From positions 186,001 to 250,000 of the forward strand of contig NZ_JAKMCM010000004.1 in assembly GCF_022662015.1 (NCBI RefSeq): a stretch of 64,000 nt of DNA. Reading direction: 5' to 3'. Source of the stretch: Aestuariivivens sediminicola (GTDB lineage: Bacteria; Bacteroidota; Bacteroidia; Flavobacteriales; Flavobacteriaceae). The position numbers were made by a program, and so were the translations under genes. Below are positions 10,900-15,067 of this stretch, one piece after another. Under the pieces are notes generated by a model. It was not told the DNA's origin, did no database searches, and saw only the letters and a list, made by a program, of their open reading frames with translations. The stretch's first letter is position 1; every line of letters starts with the position of its first letter.

Positions 10900-12822
10900 A
10901 TGCAGTTTAAAAACCCCGAAATTCTTTATGCTTTAGTTTTACTGCTAATTCCAATTATTATCCACCTTTTTCAATTGCGTCGATTTAAAAAAGTGGATTT
11001 CACCAATGTGGCCTTCTTAAAAAAAGCAAGCCTGCAAACCAGAAAAAGTTCCGAAATAAAAAAATGGCTTGTTCTGTTGACCAGACTTTTATTATTTGCT
11101 GCGATAATCATTGCCTTTGCCCAACCCTACACCTCTAAAACCAGGGGTCAGACTAAAACGGAAAACGTTATTTATTTGGATAATTCGTTTAGTATGCAAG
11201 CCAAGGGAAACCAGGGTGAATTATTTAAACGCGCTGTCCAGGATGTCATTGCAAACGTACCTCAGGATGCCGTGGTTTCAATCTTTACCAATGATGCCGT
11301 GTTTAAAAACACTACCATTGATGCGGTAAAGAATGAATTACTTCGCCTGGAGTATTCTGCGTCCCAATTACCGTATAAAGCCGCCTTATTGAAAAGTAAT
11401 TTATTACTGGAAAACAATAAAAATAGTCTGAAAAATATAGTGTTCATTTCAGATTTTCAGGACTATGACAACAGTCTCAATGAAGTTATCGATCCCTCAG
11501 TAAATCTCCACCTGGTGAAATTAAGTCCGGTGAACACAGCCAATATATCTGTTGACAGTATTGCTGTATCGAGTGCAAATGCAACCAACCTGGAATTAGC
11601 TGTATTCCTAAAGAACAGCGGGGATTTGATCGATAATTTACCGGTTTCATTGTACAACGACAATGACCTTGTTGCAAAGACTTCTGTTGAATTGGACCGA
11701 TCTTTAAGTACGTTATTTTCAATTCCAAGTAATACGGCTTTTAAGGGTCAGATTGTTATTGATGACGGGGCCTTACAATTTGATAATATTTTATATTTCA
11801 ATTTAAACGACATCAAAAAAATAAATGTTTTGGTTATCAATCAGGCTGATGACAGCTTTCTAAAGCGTATTTATACTAAGGATGAATTTAATTACAAGGC
11901 CTTTGAAATAAATCAACTGGACTATAATCTTATAAGTGACCAACAGCTCATCATATTAAATGAATTGGATCAAATACCGAATTCACTTGCCACCTCTTTA
12001 AAAGCATTTGCCAGGCAAGGTGGTTCTATTCTGGTGGTTCCCGCAGAAGCGATTCATACGAGATCCTACAACGATTTGCTTATTGATTTCAACATAGCTC
12101 TTGATAGTTTCAATTTAAATGAAAAACGTATCACCGAGATCAATTTCTCACATCCGCTCTACGCGAATGGGGTTTTTGAAAAACAGATCAGCAATTTTCA
12201 GTACCCCAAGGTAAAAGGACACTACAGGGTGAATACAAATAAGGCCTCCTCTGCCTTAAAATTCGAAAATGGTGCTACCTTTTTGTCTCAAGGGAAAAAC
12301 CTGTATTTATTTGCTTCGCCCCTAAGTGGTGATAACTCTAACTTTGTCAATTCGCCCTTAATCGTTCCGTCATTGTATAATATAGGCAAATACAGTCTTA
12401 AATTGCCTCGCTTATATTACACCATTGGCAGAAATAACAGTTTTGATGTAGCAACTCAGCTGCAACAGGACGATATCCTGACACTGGTCAAAAATGAGAT
12501 AAGCATTATTCCACGTCAGCAGCAATACAACAACAAGGTGGTTATTAAAACTGAGGAAAGTCCCGAGGTTGCGGGAATCTATTCCATAAACTCAAAAGAT
12601 CAGGTGTTATCTCATGTCAGTTTCAATTATCAACGAACAGAAAGTGATTTAACCTACAAAGACGTTTCAAACTCAGATCAGGTTCTTGTGAACAATTCTG
12701 TGAGCGCGGTTTTTGATGCTATAAAAAGTGATACAAAAATGAATGCCTTATGGAAATGGTTTGTTATTTTTGCACTGCTGTTACTGATAATAGAAATGCT
12801 CATCTTAAAATATTTTAAATGA
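10900..12822 (+). CDS. BatA-domain / von Willebrand A-like membrane protein
   Basis: A 640-residue membrane protein. It begins with the Bacteroidota BatA-type N-terminus (TIGR02226): FKNPEILYALVLLLIPIIIHLF, then a basic RRFKKVDF stretch and a second helix (LLTRLLLFAAIIIAFAQP). A von Willebrand A-like domain follows with a MIDAS-like start, YLDNSFSMQAKG (DxSxS-like with Asn in the second position). A final hydrophobic helix sits at the C-terminus (FVIFALLLLIIEMLILKYF). These proteins are anchored with the vWA and the large middle domain in the periplasm; their function is unknown. The stop overlaps the ATG of the next gene by four bases (12819-12822), so the two are translationally coupled and begin a four-gene operon. 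Confidence 0.85.
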   Translation: MQFKNPEILYALVLLLIPIIIHLFQLRRFKKVDFTNVAFLKKASLQTRKSSEIKKWLVLLTRLLLFAAIIIAFAQPYTSKTRGQTKTENVIYLDNSFSMQAKGNQGELFKRAVQDVIANVPQDAVVSIFTNDAVFKNTTIDAVKNELLRLEYSASQLPYKAALLKSNLLLENNKNSLKNIVFISDFQDYDNSLNEVIDPSVNLHLVKLSPVNTANISVDSIAVSSANATNLELAVFLKNSGDLIDNLPVSLYNDNDLVAKTSVELDRSLSTLFSIPSNTAFKGQIVIDDGALQFDNILYFNLNDIKKINVLVINQADDSFLKRIYTKDEFNYKAFEINQLDYNLISDQQLIILNELDQIPNSLATSLKAFARQGGSILVVPAEAIHTRSYNDLLIDFNIALDSFNLNEKRITEINFSHPLYANGVFEKQISNFQYPKVKGHYRVNTNKASSALKFENGATFLSQGKNLYLFASPLSGDNSNFVNSPLIVPSLYNIGKYSLKLPRLYYTIGRNNSFDVATQLQQDDILTLVKNEISIIPRQQQYNNKVVIKTEESPEVAGIYSINSKDQVLSHVSFNYQRTESDLTYKDVSNSDQVLVNNSVSAVFDAIKSDTKMNALWKWFVIFALLLLIIEMLILKYFK

Positions 12823-14075
12823 ATGTACTTATAAAGTCCGCTACAATTATAGATCCTGAAAGCGAATTTCACAATACGACTCAGGATGTATTAATTGAAA
12901 AGGGCGTAGTTACGCGAATTGGAAATTATCTAAAAAATCCCGGCAACTATAAGGAAATTCAGTTTAACAACCTTCACATTTCACAAGGATGGTTTGATAG
13001 CAGTGTAAGTTTTGGAGAGCCGGGTTATGAAGAACGTGAAACGATTACAAATGGACTACATACAGCGGCTTTATCGGGATTTACTGCAATAGCACTGAAC
13101 GCTGATACCAATCCAATTATCGATACCAATGCAGATATTGCCTTTGTACTATCAAAATCGAAGGACAATGCCGTAACCTTGTTACCCATGGGAGCATTGA
13201 CCTCTAACAGCAATGGTACGCATTTAGCGGAGCTCTTCGATATGAAATCTGCCGGAGCGGTTGCTTTTTATGATTACAAAAAGTCGGTTTCCAATCCGAA
13301 TCTGATGAAAATTGCATTGCAATATGCAAGTAACTTCAGTGGTTTGGTGTGCTCCTTTCCTTTAGATCAGGACATTTCGAGAAATGGTGTCATGAATGAG
13401 CATGTTGCCAGTACAAAACTTGGTCTTAAGGGTAATCCTGCGCTGGCGGAAGAACTTCAGGTGTCTCGCGATTTGTTTCTCCTGGAATATACAGGTGGTA
13501 AATTACATATACCGACCATTTCCACAGCGAGATCGGTCGCCCTAATCAAAGAAGCCAAAGCCAAAAAATTAGACGTTTCCTGCAGTGTTGCCATACACAA
13601 CCTGTGCTTTACCGATGATGCGTTATCCGATTTTAACACCAACTTTAAAGTCCAGCCACCCTTGAGAACGCAAAAAGATATTGGTGCCTTAATTGACGGT
13701 CTTAAGGACGGCACCATTGATATGGTTACCAGCGATCATTCCCCTATAGATATTGAAGAGAAAAAGCTGGAGTTCGATCGGGCAAATTATGGGACCATTG
13801 GTTTAGAAAGTGCTTACGGGGCATTGCAAACCGTCTTATCAACAGAAAAATGTGTGGAGGTGTTAACAAGAGGAAAATCCCGCTTTGGAGTGCAACCAGT
13901 CCCCATCGCAATAGGAAACATATTGAATGCCACCCTTTTCAATCCTGATGATACCTATGTTTTTGAAAAAGGAGACATCAGTTCCAAATCCAAAAATGCC
14001 ATATTTGAAGGTGCTCAATTAAAGGGTCGCGTGTATGGCATCTTTTCTAATAATAAACTAGTCTTAAAGAAATAA
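12819..14075 (+). CDS. Dihydroorotase-like amidohydrolase lacking key metal ligands
   Basis: A 418-residue protein clearly related to class I dihydroorotases along its length: VLIKSATIIDPESEFHN at the start, FGEPGYEERETITNGLHTAA, GNPALAEELQVSRDLFLLEYTGG, FKVQPPLRTQKDIGALIDGLKDGTIDMVTSDHSP and a GLESAYG segment. However, the metal-binding HxH of the DVHVHLREPG motif is SxS here (Ser62, Ser64, and Gly66 for the substrate-binding Arg). The later zinc-ligand His of the H-x-ST motif is Thr233, and the PHHL region reads IHNL. Only the Asp of the final motif (about Asp306) remains. It is therefore probably not a working dihydroorotase; a structural partner of aspartate carbamoyltransferase is one possibility. 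It is the second gene of the operon and overlaps the BatA-like gene. Confidence 0.85.
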   Translation: MNVLIKSATIIDPESEFHNTTQDVLIEKGVVTRIGNYLKNPGNYKEIQFNNLHISQGWFDSSVSFGEPGYEERETITNGLHTAALSGFTAIALNADTNPIIDTNADIAFVLSKSKDNAVTLLPMGALTSNSNGTHLAELFDMKSAGAVAFYDYKKSVSNPNLMKIALQYASNFSGLVCSFPLDQDISRNGVMNEHVASTKLGLKGNPALAEELQVSRDLFLLEYTGGKLHIPTISTARSVALIKEAKAKKLDVSCSVAIHNLCFTDDALSDFNTNFKVQPPLRTQKDIGALIDGLKDGTIDMVTSDHSPIDIEEKKLEFDRANYGTIGLESAYGALQTVLSTEKCVEVLTRGKSRFGVQPVPIAIGNILNATLFNPDDTYVFEKGDISSKSKNAIFEGAQLKGRVYGIFSNNKLVLKK

Positions 14076-14077
14076 GC

Positions 14078-14410
14078 ATGCATCAGCAAGAGATAAACGA
14101 TGGAAAAACATTGGCTTTTGTGAGCTATATCACCATTATAGGCACCATTATTGCCTATTTTATGAATAACGATAAAAAAAACCCATTCATTAGTTTTCAT
14201 ACACGTCAGGCACTAGGCTTATGGCTCACCTATTTTATCTTGGGATGGCTTATTAGTGCTGTAGATAGTTGGTACGCTACCCTGGGATTCTGGATTTTCT
14301 TTAGTGTGCTATTTGTGTATGCCATTGTAAGTGCCATTGGTGGTAAAACCCGACCGGTCCCTCTTGTGGGGCATTTGTTTCAAAACTGGTTTTCAAGTAT
14401 AGGACACTAA
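14078..14410 (+). CDS. Small membrane protein, DUF4870/Tic20-like
   Basis: A 110-residue protein with about three hydrophobic segments (residues about 11-28, 47-63 and 68-87). The loop NDKKNPFISFHTRQALGL is the typical signature of DUF4870-like and Tic20-like small membrane proteins. The function is unknown. It begins 2 bp after the stop of the dihydroorotase-like gene, so it is cotranscribed and perhaps coupled to it. It is followed 12 bp later by the esterase gene. Confidence 0.78.
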   Translation: MHQQEINDGKTLAFVSYITIIGTIIAYFMNNDKKNPFISFHTRQALGLWLTYFILGWLISAVDSWYATLGFWIFFSVLFVYAIVSAIGGKTRPVPLVGHLFQNWFSSIGH

Positions 14411-14422
14411 ATTTTAAATACC

Positions 14423-15067
14423 TTGCCTTCTTTGCACCATATCATTCGCGAATCCAGTTTAAAGGAAAATGCACCACTGCTCATCATGCTGCATGGTTAC
14501 GGTAGTGACGAAAATGATTTGTACTCCTTTTCACAGGAATTACCAGAAGAACTTTTTGTTATTTCGTTGCGAGCGCCCTACACCATGCAACCCTTTGGAT
14601 ACGCCTGGTATAGCATTAATTTTGAGGCAGAAAAAGGGAAATGGAGTGATAATGATCAGGCGATACAATCTCGTGATCTAATCGCTAATTTTATTGATGA
14701 AGCCGTTGTAAATTACCCTGTAAATAAACACAATATAACCCTCCTCGGTTTTAGCCAGGGTACCATTTTGAGTTATGCAGTGGCATTGACTTATCCGGAA
14801 AAGGTTAAAAACATAATTGCATTGAGCGGATACGTTAACAAGGATATCATTTCAGGTGATTATCGAAAAAGAGATTATTCTCATCTGGATTTTTATTGTT
14901 CACACGGCAGTGTAGATCAGGTCATACCAGTTGAATGGGCCAGACAAACACCTTCTTTTTTACATCAGCTGAACATTAAACATTGTTACGCCGAATTTCC
15001 TGTTGGTCATGGTGTTGCACCTCAAAACTTCTATGAGTTTAAAAACTGGTTAAAAAAACGTATTTAG
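14423..15067 (+). CDS. Alpha/beta-hydrolase, phospholipase/carboxylesterase type
   Basis: A 214-residue cytoplasmic serine esterase of the Abhydrolase_2 type. Motifs in order: LIMLHGYGSDENDLYSF near the start, the nucleophile elbow LLGFSQGTIL (about Ser113), the acid SHGSVDQVIP and the base EFPVGHGV. Substrates in this family are short acyl esters or lysophospholipids; the true substrate cannot be read. The start is a TTG at 14423-14425. The next ATG in frame would remove the first strand (it lies within LLIMLHGYG), and homologues of this family usually have about 20 residues before LHGYG, so the TTG start is the best available. It is the last gene of the operon that begins at 10900. Confidence 0.88.
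   Translation: MPSLHHIIRESSLKENAPLLIMLHGYGSDENDLYSFSQELPEELFVISLRAPYTMQPFGYAWYSINFEAEKGKWSDNDQAIQSRDLIANFIDEAVVNYPVNKHNITLLGFSQGTILSYAVALTYPEKVKNIIALSGYVNKDIISGDYRKRDYSHLDFYCSHGSVDQVIPVEWARQTPSFLHQLNIKHCYAEFPVGHGVAPQNFYEFKNWLKKRI

Follow-up and report, generated by a model that had tools for sequence, protein, structure and literature searches.

A decayed dihydroorotase homologue of Aestuariivivens sediminicola as a probable non-catalytic partner of one PyrB type in Bacteroidia

Introduction

Dodecamers with an active or an inactive dihydroorotase make up one of three types of prokaryotic aspartate carbamoyltransferase (ATCase) (PMC4581275). Type-I dihydroorotases (DHO) are often associated with the ATCase chain (ATC), and in Aquifex the free DHO is inactive, its loops becoming ordered upon ATC binding (PMC3880350). 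The Pseudomonas enzyme consists of six catalytic chains and six chains of an inactive DHO homologue, which in P. aeruginosa is required for ATCase activity, the dodecamer being formed (PMC7053772). Here we describe a similarly decayed homologue, called pDHO below, from the flavobacterium Aestuariivivens sediminicola. It is encoded in a window of 64,000 nucleotides, i.e. positions 186,001 to 250,000 of contig NZ_JAKMCM010000004.1 (assembly GCF_022662015.1), to which all coordinates of the A. sediminicola pDHO locus refer. At a probability of roughly 0.78, we infer that pDHO has lost its activity and binds, as a non-catalytic partner subunit, the type of PyrB that is native to its class.

Pseudomonas PyrC' (class A2) is, like pDHO, a full-length type-I dihydroorotase homologue without zinc ligands, and as here further PyrC paralogues are found in the genome (PMC2770081). 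Unlike that of PyrC', the gene of pDHO lies away from pyrB, beside a BatA-like gene, and the stepwise decay of its active site can be seen over a whole class. The DHO-ATC complex of Aquifex aeolicus (class A1; 3d6n and 4bjh in the Protein Data Bank, PDB) provides the closest solved structures by sequence, and the second and third closest by fold. By analogy it is probably a model of a pDHO-PyrB assembly, although Aquifex DHO, presumably unlike pDHO, is active once bound to ATC. The pseudo-DHO domain of the fungal CAD-like Ura2 has also lost its zinc ligands and is still attached to ATCase, as proposed for pDHO (PMC7053772); it is part of one long polypeptide, whereas pDHO is a free chain. Zur-linked PyrC paralogues of proteobacteria likewise have no zinc ligands, but in contrast to pDHO activity is described and regulation by zinc predicted for them, and the accessible part of that source gives no link to PyrB (PMC2770081). 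No paper on a pDHO of Bacteroidota was found in literature searches, which covered listings and the openings of abstracts, most subscription papers being beyond reach.

Results

The gene and its altered active site

The gene and the segments discussed below are as follows.

12819..14075, + strand: decayed type-I dihydroorotase homologue (pDHO), 418 aa, ATG start; from model, structure and alignment matches
13002..13016, + strand, codons 62-66: S62-V-S64-F-G66 replacing HxHxR, the motif with the alpha-metal ligands and the substrate Arg; from alignment with relatives that keep the site
13356..13358, + strand, codon 180: Phe at the position of the first beta-site His; from alignment
13359..13451, + strand, codons 181-211: segment corresponding in the alignment to loop A of Aquifex (PMC3880350) and what follows it
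13515..13517, + strand, codon 233: Thr replacing the second beta-site His; from alignment
13593..13604, + strand, codons 259-262: IHNL in place of PHHL; from alignment

Dihydroorotase models cover pDHO end to end, in agreement with an earlier note on this DNA that had called the 418-aa product a full-length homologue. Against TIGR00857 (pyrC_multi) it scores 249.5 bits, missing the curated cut-off of 279.05 by about 30 bits, and a Pfam scan of the protein at 0.001 returned zero matches. Its matches in the PDB are type-I dihydroorotases, the best being the Aquifex entries 4bjh and 3d6n (E 6-9e-60). The fold is that of a type-I dihydroorotase of about 45 kDa, whose composite domain has its two terminal segments. 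In an alignment with relatives that keep the site, the metal and substrate positions S62, S64, G66, F180 and T233 are substituted, while D152, D306 and H307 are retained. The residues that the earlier note had read as altered (S62/S64, Gly66, Thr233 and IHNL) were borne out by this alignment, F180 being an addition. What a catalytic type-I dihydroorotase is expected to have, i.e. HxH, the substrate Arg and the other metal ligands, is consequently not found in pDHO, which has lost zinc ligands and substrate residues in the manner of a class A2 non-catalytic subunit, with D152 and D306 retained. It is presumably catalytically inactive.

Among 80 named relatives, mostly Flavobacteriaceae and with an Aestuariivivens sequence as the closest (78% identity), position 62 is S, G or A in 74, 5 and 1 sequences and position 64 is S, C or A in 39, 38 and 3, respectively, while G66 and T233 are found in 80 out of 80. 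The losses are thus conserved among homologues, a point that the earlier note had singled out for checking, and because they are common to all these sequences they can be attributed neither to chance nor to sequencing error; an error or a single odd gene was rejected on this ground. When the ten most similar pairs among the named relatives were compared, the ratio of nonsynonymous to synonymous substitution rates (dN/dS) was 0.03-0.11. This indicates purifying selection on pDHO, which the note had supposed from its full length and translational coupling, and rules out a pseudogene.

Co-occurrence with one type of PyrB

The genome of A. sediminicola (3.65 Mb in 21 contigs) has one PyrB over the cut-off, on contig C18 after a PyrR-like gene. 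A profile search of the genome gave no match to PyrI, so that its ATCase, as in class A2, comes without PyrI. For comparison, 198 genomes of the class, which was taken as Bacteroidia going by the named relatives, were surveyed. A member of the pDHO family was present in 172 and absent from 26, and 157 of the 172 sequences were read. Ten genomes (G178, G191, G222, G251, G261, G264, G281, G288, G291 and G308) were scored as having pDHO by profile alone, and since G072, whose type-I gene is intact, falls in the same score range (E 5.4e-111), decay is not established in these ten.

PyrBs of the class fell into two groups. Native-type PyrBs were 59-100% identical to that of A. sediminicola, where identity was read, and the other PyrBs read reached 48.5% at most; genomes lacking a printed identity were assigned by E-value. 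The native PyrBs of G173, G198, G291 and G302 are split or partial, with 71-85% identity. Since PyrBs of other classes are 49-60% identical to that of A. sediminicola, the identity gap is a class-level one. Out of the 198 genomes, 169 had both a pDHO-family gene and a native PyrB, 23 had neither, three had the PyrB only and three the homologue only (Fisher p 9e-24, uncorrected for kinship). The corresponding numbers for the 176 genomes with a completeness of at least 90% were 151, 22, zero and three. One of the three homologue-only genomes is G072, in which the type-I gene is intact and adjoins that genome's PyrB. Within the genus label g97, G232 has neither pDHO nor a native PyrB, and G161, G200, G260, G287 and G315 have both.

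Because the genomes are related, the association was also examined on an rpoB tree of 49 hand-picked genomes, 46 rows of which entered the trait test. The 18 rows lacking pDHO were 17 of the 26 survey genomes without it plus G095. G163 was included, G169 (split rpoB), G241, G267, G282 and G284 were left out, and G072 and two outgroup rows, all with intact type-I genes, stood on the tree outside the trait test. Each trait, i.e. pDHO and native PyrB, requires seven changes on this tree. Six independent pairs were found on supported branches, in which the two traits changed in the same direction 5.9 times on average and never in opposite directions (200 pairings), giving a median sign test p of 0.031, the lowest value that six pairs allow. 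Furthermore, the partial correlation of pDHO and PyrB distances given rpoB was 0.73 (permutation p 0.0002) in a small chosen set of 11 genomes. The native-type PyrBs cluster together (support 92), near the outgroup PyrBs, in a tree that is partly unresolved.

Some single loci deserve mention for their arrangement. The PyrB of G232 (G232:C75:8268-9173, L066) is 33% identical to that of A. sediminicola and comes without PyrI, the sampled congeners by genus label having native PyrB and pDHO. G287 carries two PyrBs (C52, the same as L060, and C66), one PyrI-type and the other native; it retains pDHO, and a PyrI was not found. At G243:C1:191966-197030, pDHO and pyrB are about 3 kb apart and face each other. 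A very divergent pDHO-like gene, L438 (G163:C230:250-1440), stands beside a BatA-like gene and is an exception to the PyrB rule.

PyrI was found over the cut-off in seven genomes, all seven without pDHO, and at this threshold PyrI and pDHO never occurred together in the survey. In G029, where pDHO is present, a match to PyrI was below the cut-off (25.8 bits, five internal stops) and was not counted. The altered site of pDHO, in turn, has a mean entropy of 0.42 bits compared to 0.93 bits for the whole protein in 95 rows from the family (own sequence twice), while 26 sequences from other families show the reverse, the site being more variable than the whole protein (2.37 vs 2.00 bits). Conservation within the family and the lack of overlap with PyrI would fit a more specific role, in that in Flavobacteriaceae the dead site might have been rebuilt as a ligand-sensing pocket, making pDHO a regulatory ATCase subunit with a PyrI-like role on a dihydroorotase fold. 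We regard this as doubtful.

Decay across the class, ancestry and predicted structure

Out of the 157 sequences read, only that of G072 retained all seven ligand and substrate residues. Among the other 156, D153, D305 and H180 (Aquifex numbering) are kept in 133, 114 and 45 sequences, R65 in 43, H61 and H63 in 18 each and H232 in 15. Both HxH histidines are present in five of the 156 and all seven residues in none. L438 is poorly aligned among these sequences, and G231, G301, G199, G193 and G167 (fragments, split frames, an internal stop or a contig end) stand outside them. In G199 (G199:C1:3673936-3675179; L093, L108) the gene is split over two matches in different frames, by either an assembly error or a real break.

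HxHxR is kept in the 15 relatives read from outside the class (L029-L035, L050-L057). On a tree, the sequences of pDHO group in a single clade (40 rows; Shimodaira-Hasegawa-like approximate likelihood ratio test, 99) that adjoins the intact outgroup type-I enzymes. An intact type-I gene has pyrB as its direct upstream neighbor at L044, L050, L053 and L056, four of the 16 loci that carry such a gene; no pyrB was found in the other 12 within the flank of 1.5-2 kb examined. Such adjacency is the arrangement to be expected if both genes once formed a class A1 enzyme.

An AlphaFold2 model of pDHO, built from 31 class sequences, reached a predicted local distance difference test score of 92.7 and a predicted template modeling (TM) score of 0.92. 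Its only long dip in confidence, residues 181-210, is aligned with Aquifex loop A, and E194, G202, P207 and E211, in or beside the dip, are near invariant in decayed and intact relatives alike. Compared over its full length with ATC-bound Aquifex DHO (3d6n), the model gave a TM score of 0.94 and a root-mean-square deviation (rmsd) of 1.9. With free Aquifex DHO (1xrf) the values were 0.78 and 3.4, a difference in TM score to which the shorter length of the free-form entries (363-375 vs 422 residues, i.e. 47-59 fewer) contributes.

A second dihydroorotase and the question of residual activity

The earlier note had proposed looking for another pyrC in the genome, and one exists on contig C10 (G000:C10:628951-630186), above the curated cut-off of the equivalog NF006688 (733.5 vs 535 bits) and also above that of TIGR00857. 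It forms a distant group on the same tree as pDHO. The Arg and the HCE, HLST, HHL and TDHAPH motifs are kept, with Q-V-H at the HxH position, as is likewise the case in its closest solved relative, 2gwn of P. gingivalis, a dihydroorotase by its PDB name. Among 13 such second enzymes read, nine have QxH and four HxH, and three of the former occur in genomes lacking pDHO (G012, G232 and G242). The second dihydroorotase, in which the metal motif is changed, is probably active and is the candidate for the other, active dihydroorotase expected in a cell with a class A2 ATCase. Immediately upstream of its gene (L001 1447-2787, minus strand) is a gene for a DPM1-like glycosyltransferase.

Loss of metal ligands need not abolish activity: Aquifex DHO is fully active without both beta-site histidines (PMC3880350), and a Zur-linked PyrC paralogue without zinc ligands is reported to be active (PMC2770081). 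Together with the QxH of the other dihydroorotase in the A. sediminicola genome and the retention of D152, D306 and H307, this leaves room for pDHO to be an enzyme still, either a dihydroorotase or another amidohydrolase working without the usual metal site. However, pDHO has other residues at the substrate Arg and at each of the two HxH histidines, the decay over the 156 class members is uneven from position to position and leaves none with all seven residues, and another dihydroorotase with the Arg and the other motifs is available both in this genome and in seven genomes lacking pDHO. Remaining activity of pDHO is for these reasons unlikely.

Neighboring genes and other possible partners

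The genes flanking pDHO are as follows.

10900..12822, + strand: BatA-like membrane protein, upstream of pDHO, with PF07584 / TIGR02226 at the N-terminus and an ATGA overlap with pDHO
14078..14410, + strand: small DUF4870 protein, downstream of pDHO, a conserved neighbor in the family
14423..15067, + strand: carboxylesterase-like protein, downstream of pDHO, a conserved neighbor in the family

The coupling to the BatA-like gene stressed in the earlier note is reflected in a 4-base ATGA overlap, which is shared by 79 of the 80 named relatives, all 80 of which have the BatA-like gene upstream. It is also upstream in 15 out of 15 family members, and directly upstream in loci of several other families. 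Taken by itself, this would favor a new role for pDHO together with the membrane protein, e.g. as a scaffold in a membrane complex. A BatA-like profile search (E 1e-10) of 24 genomes without and 17 with pDHO gave a more mixed picture. In the former, seven had a full-length gene (at least 456 bits; G182, G217, G232, G247, G272, G299 and G314), five had partial weak matches and 12 had none. In the latter, 14 had a match, of 250 bits in G163 and higher elsewhere, and three (G002, G007 and G091) had none. The match is hence missing in 12/24 vs 3/17 genomes, which speaks for some association, while in G158 the two genes are about 11 kb apart.

In the PyrI genomes G272 and G299 a BatA-like gene, a small gene and a GT2 gene follow each other and pDHO is absent. 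The GT2 protein of G272 is 66-72% identical to those of eight other loci, seven of which have pDHO upstream, homologues of its BatA-like protein are encoded at the pDHO loci L157, L043 and L049, and the small gene of the two clusters has weak matches to L158 and L157 (28% and 24%). On the simplest reading of these sequences, only pDHO dropped out of the cluster. As pDHO is missing from otherwise kept clusters, its presence is not set by gene position, and PyrB type fits better. The association of pDHO with the BatA-like gene exists but is far looser than that with PyrB. Of the two roles envisaged in the earlier note, that of an ATCase subunit is favored, since pDHO and one type of PyrB occur and are lost together, whereas one tied to the membrane neighbors is disfavored and in our view quite unlikely, because each gene occurs without the other and the fit of pDHO with PyrB is much tighter.

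Lastly, that pDHO partners or regulates the second dihydroorotase instead of PyrB, as the same fold, the same pathway and their presence in one genome might suggest, is highly improbable, since the second enzyme is kept without pDHO in G012, G176, G185, G202, G232, G242 and G272 and pDHO therefore does not track it.

Discussion

We consider pDHO most likely to work, by analogy, like Pseudomonas PyrC', the non-catalytic subunit of class A2 ATCase, while being encoded away from pyrB; it would be needed for the assembly or stability of PyrB. In class A2 the subunit forms a complex of about 500 kDa with PyrB that ATCase activity depends on; for pDHO the co-loss with PyrB is an indirect hint at such a complex. 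The ancestor would have been an active type-I dihydroorotase, in some lineages still beside pyrB. Once another dihydroorotase had taken over the reaction, the metal and substrate residues of the first could be lost stepwise, and the decayed homologue would have been retained through the continuing dependence of PyrB on it. Following the examples of Aquifex and Pseudomonas, pDHO dimers may hold PyrB trimers together or drive their assembly into an active holoenzyme. Where PyrB was swapped for another kind, e.g. PyrB with PyrI, pDHO would have been lost too.

Several observations weigh against the subunit role. Native PyrB occurs without pDHO in G241, G267 and G282, assemblies that are 81, 69 and 67% complete, respectively, and no PyrB was found in G163, rated 100% complete, and G284 (95% complete, 360 contigs), both of which have a pDHO-family gene. 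The genomes of the rpoB tree were selected by hand, and its sign test could not have returned a smaller p. In A. sediminicola pDHO (C16) and pyrB (C18) are on different contigs, the two genes thus not being adjacent. In Pseudomonas the gene of the inactive homologue adjoins pyrB, an arrangement that was not used as defining. The QxH of the second dihydroorotase means that loss of HxH alone is no proof of inactivity. Also, L324 (G188:C88:15288-16544) keeps both HxH histidines, the Arg and two aspartates, with both beta-site histidines lost, and may on this pattern be a candidate active or transitional form. Finally, the absence of the BatA-like gene from half of the genomes lacking pDHO leaves the link between these two genes weaker, not absent.

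If pDHO is indeed a partner subunit of PyrB, most of the class members sampled would carry out the committed step of pyrimidine synthesis with an ATCase that has a dead enzyme as a subunit, and what looks like dihydroorotase in genomes of this class would not be that enzyme. One clade then offers a natural series of active-site decay, from almost intact to wholly eroded, together with several independent swaps in which pDHO and its PyrB gave way to other types of PyrB, in some cases with PyrI. The decay series and the swaps make the role of dead subunits in ATCase directly testable.

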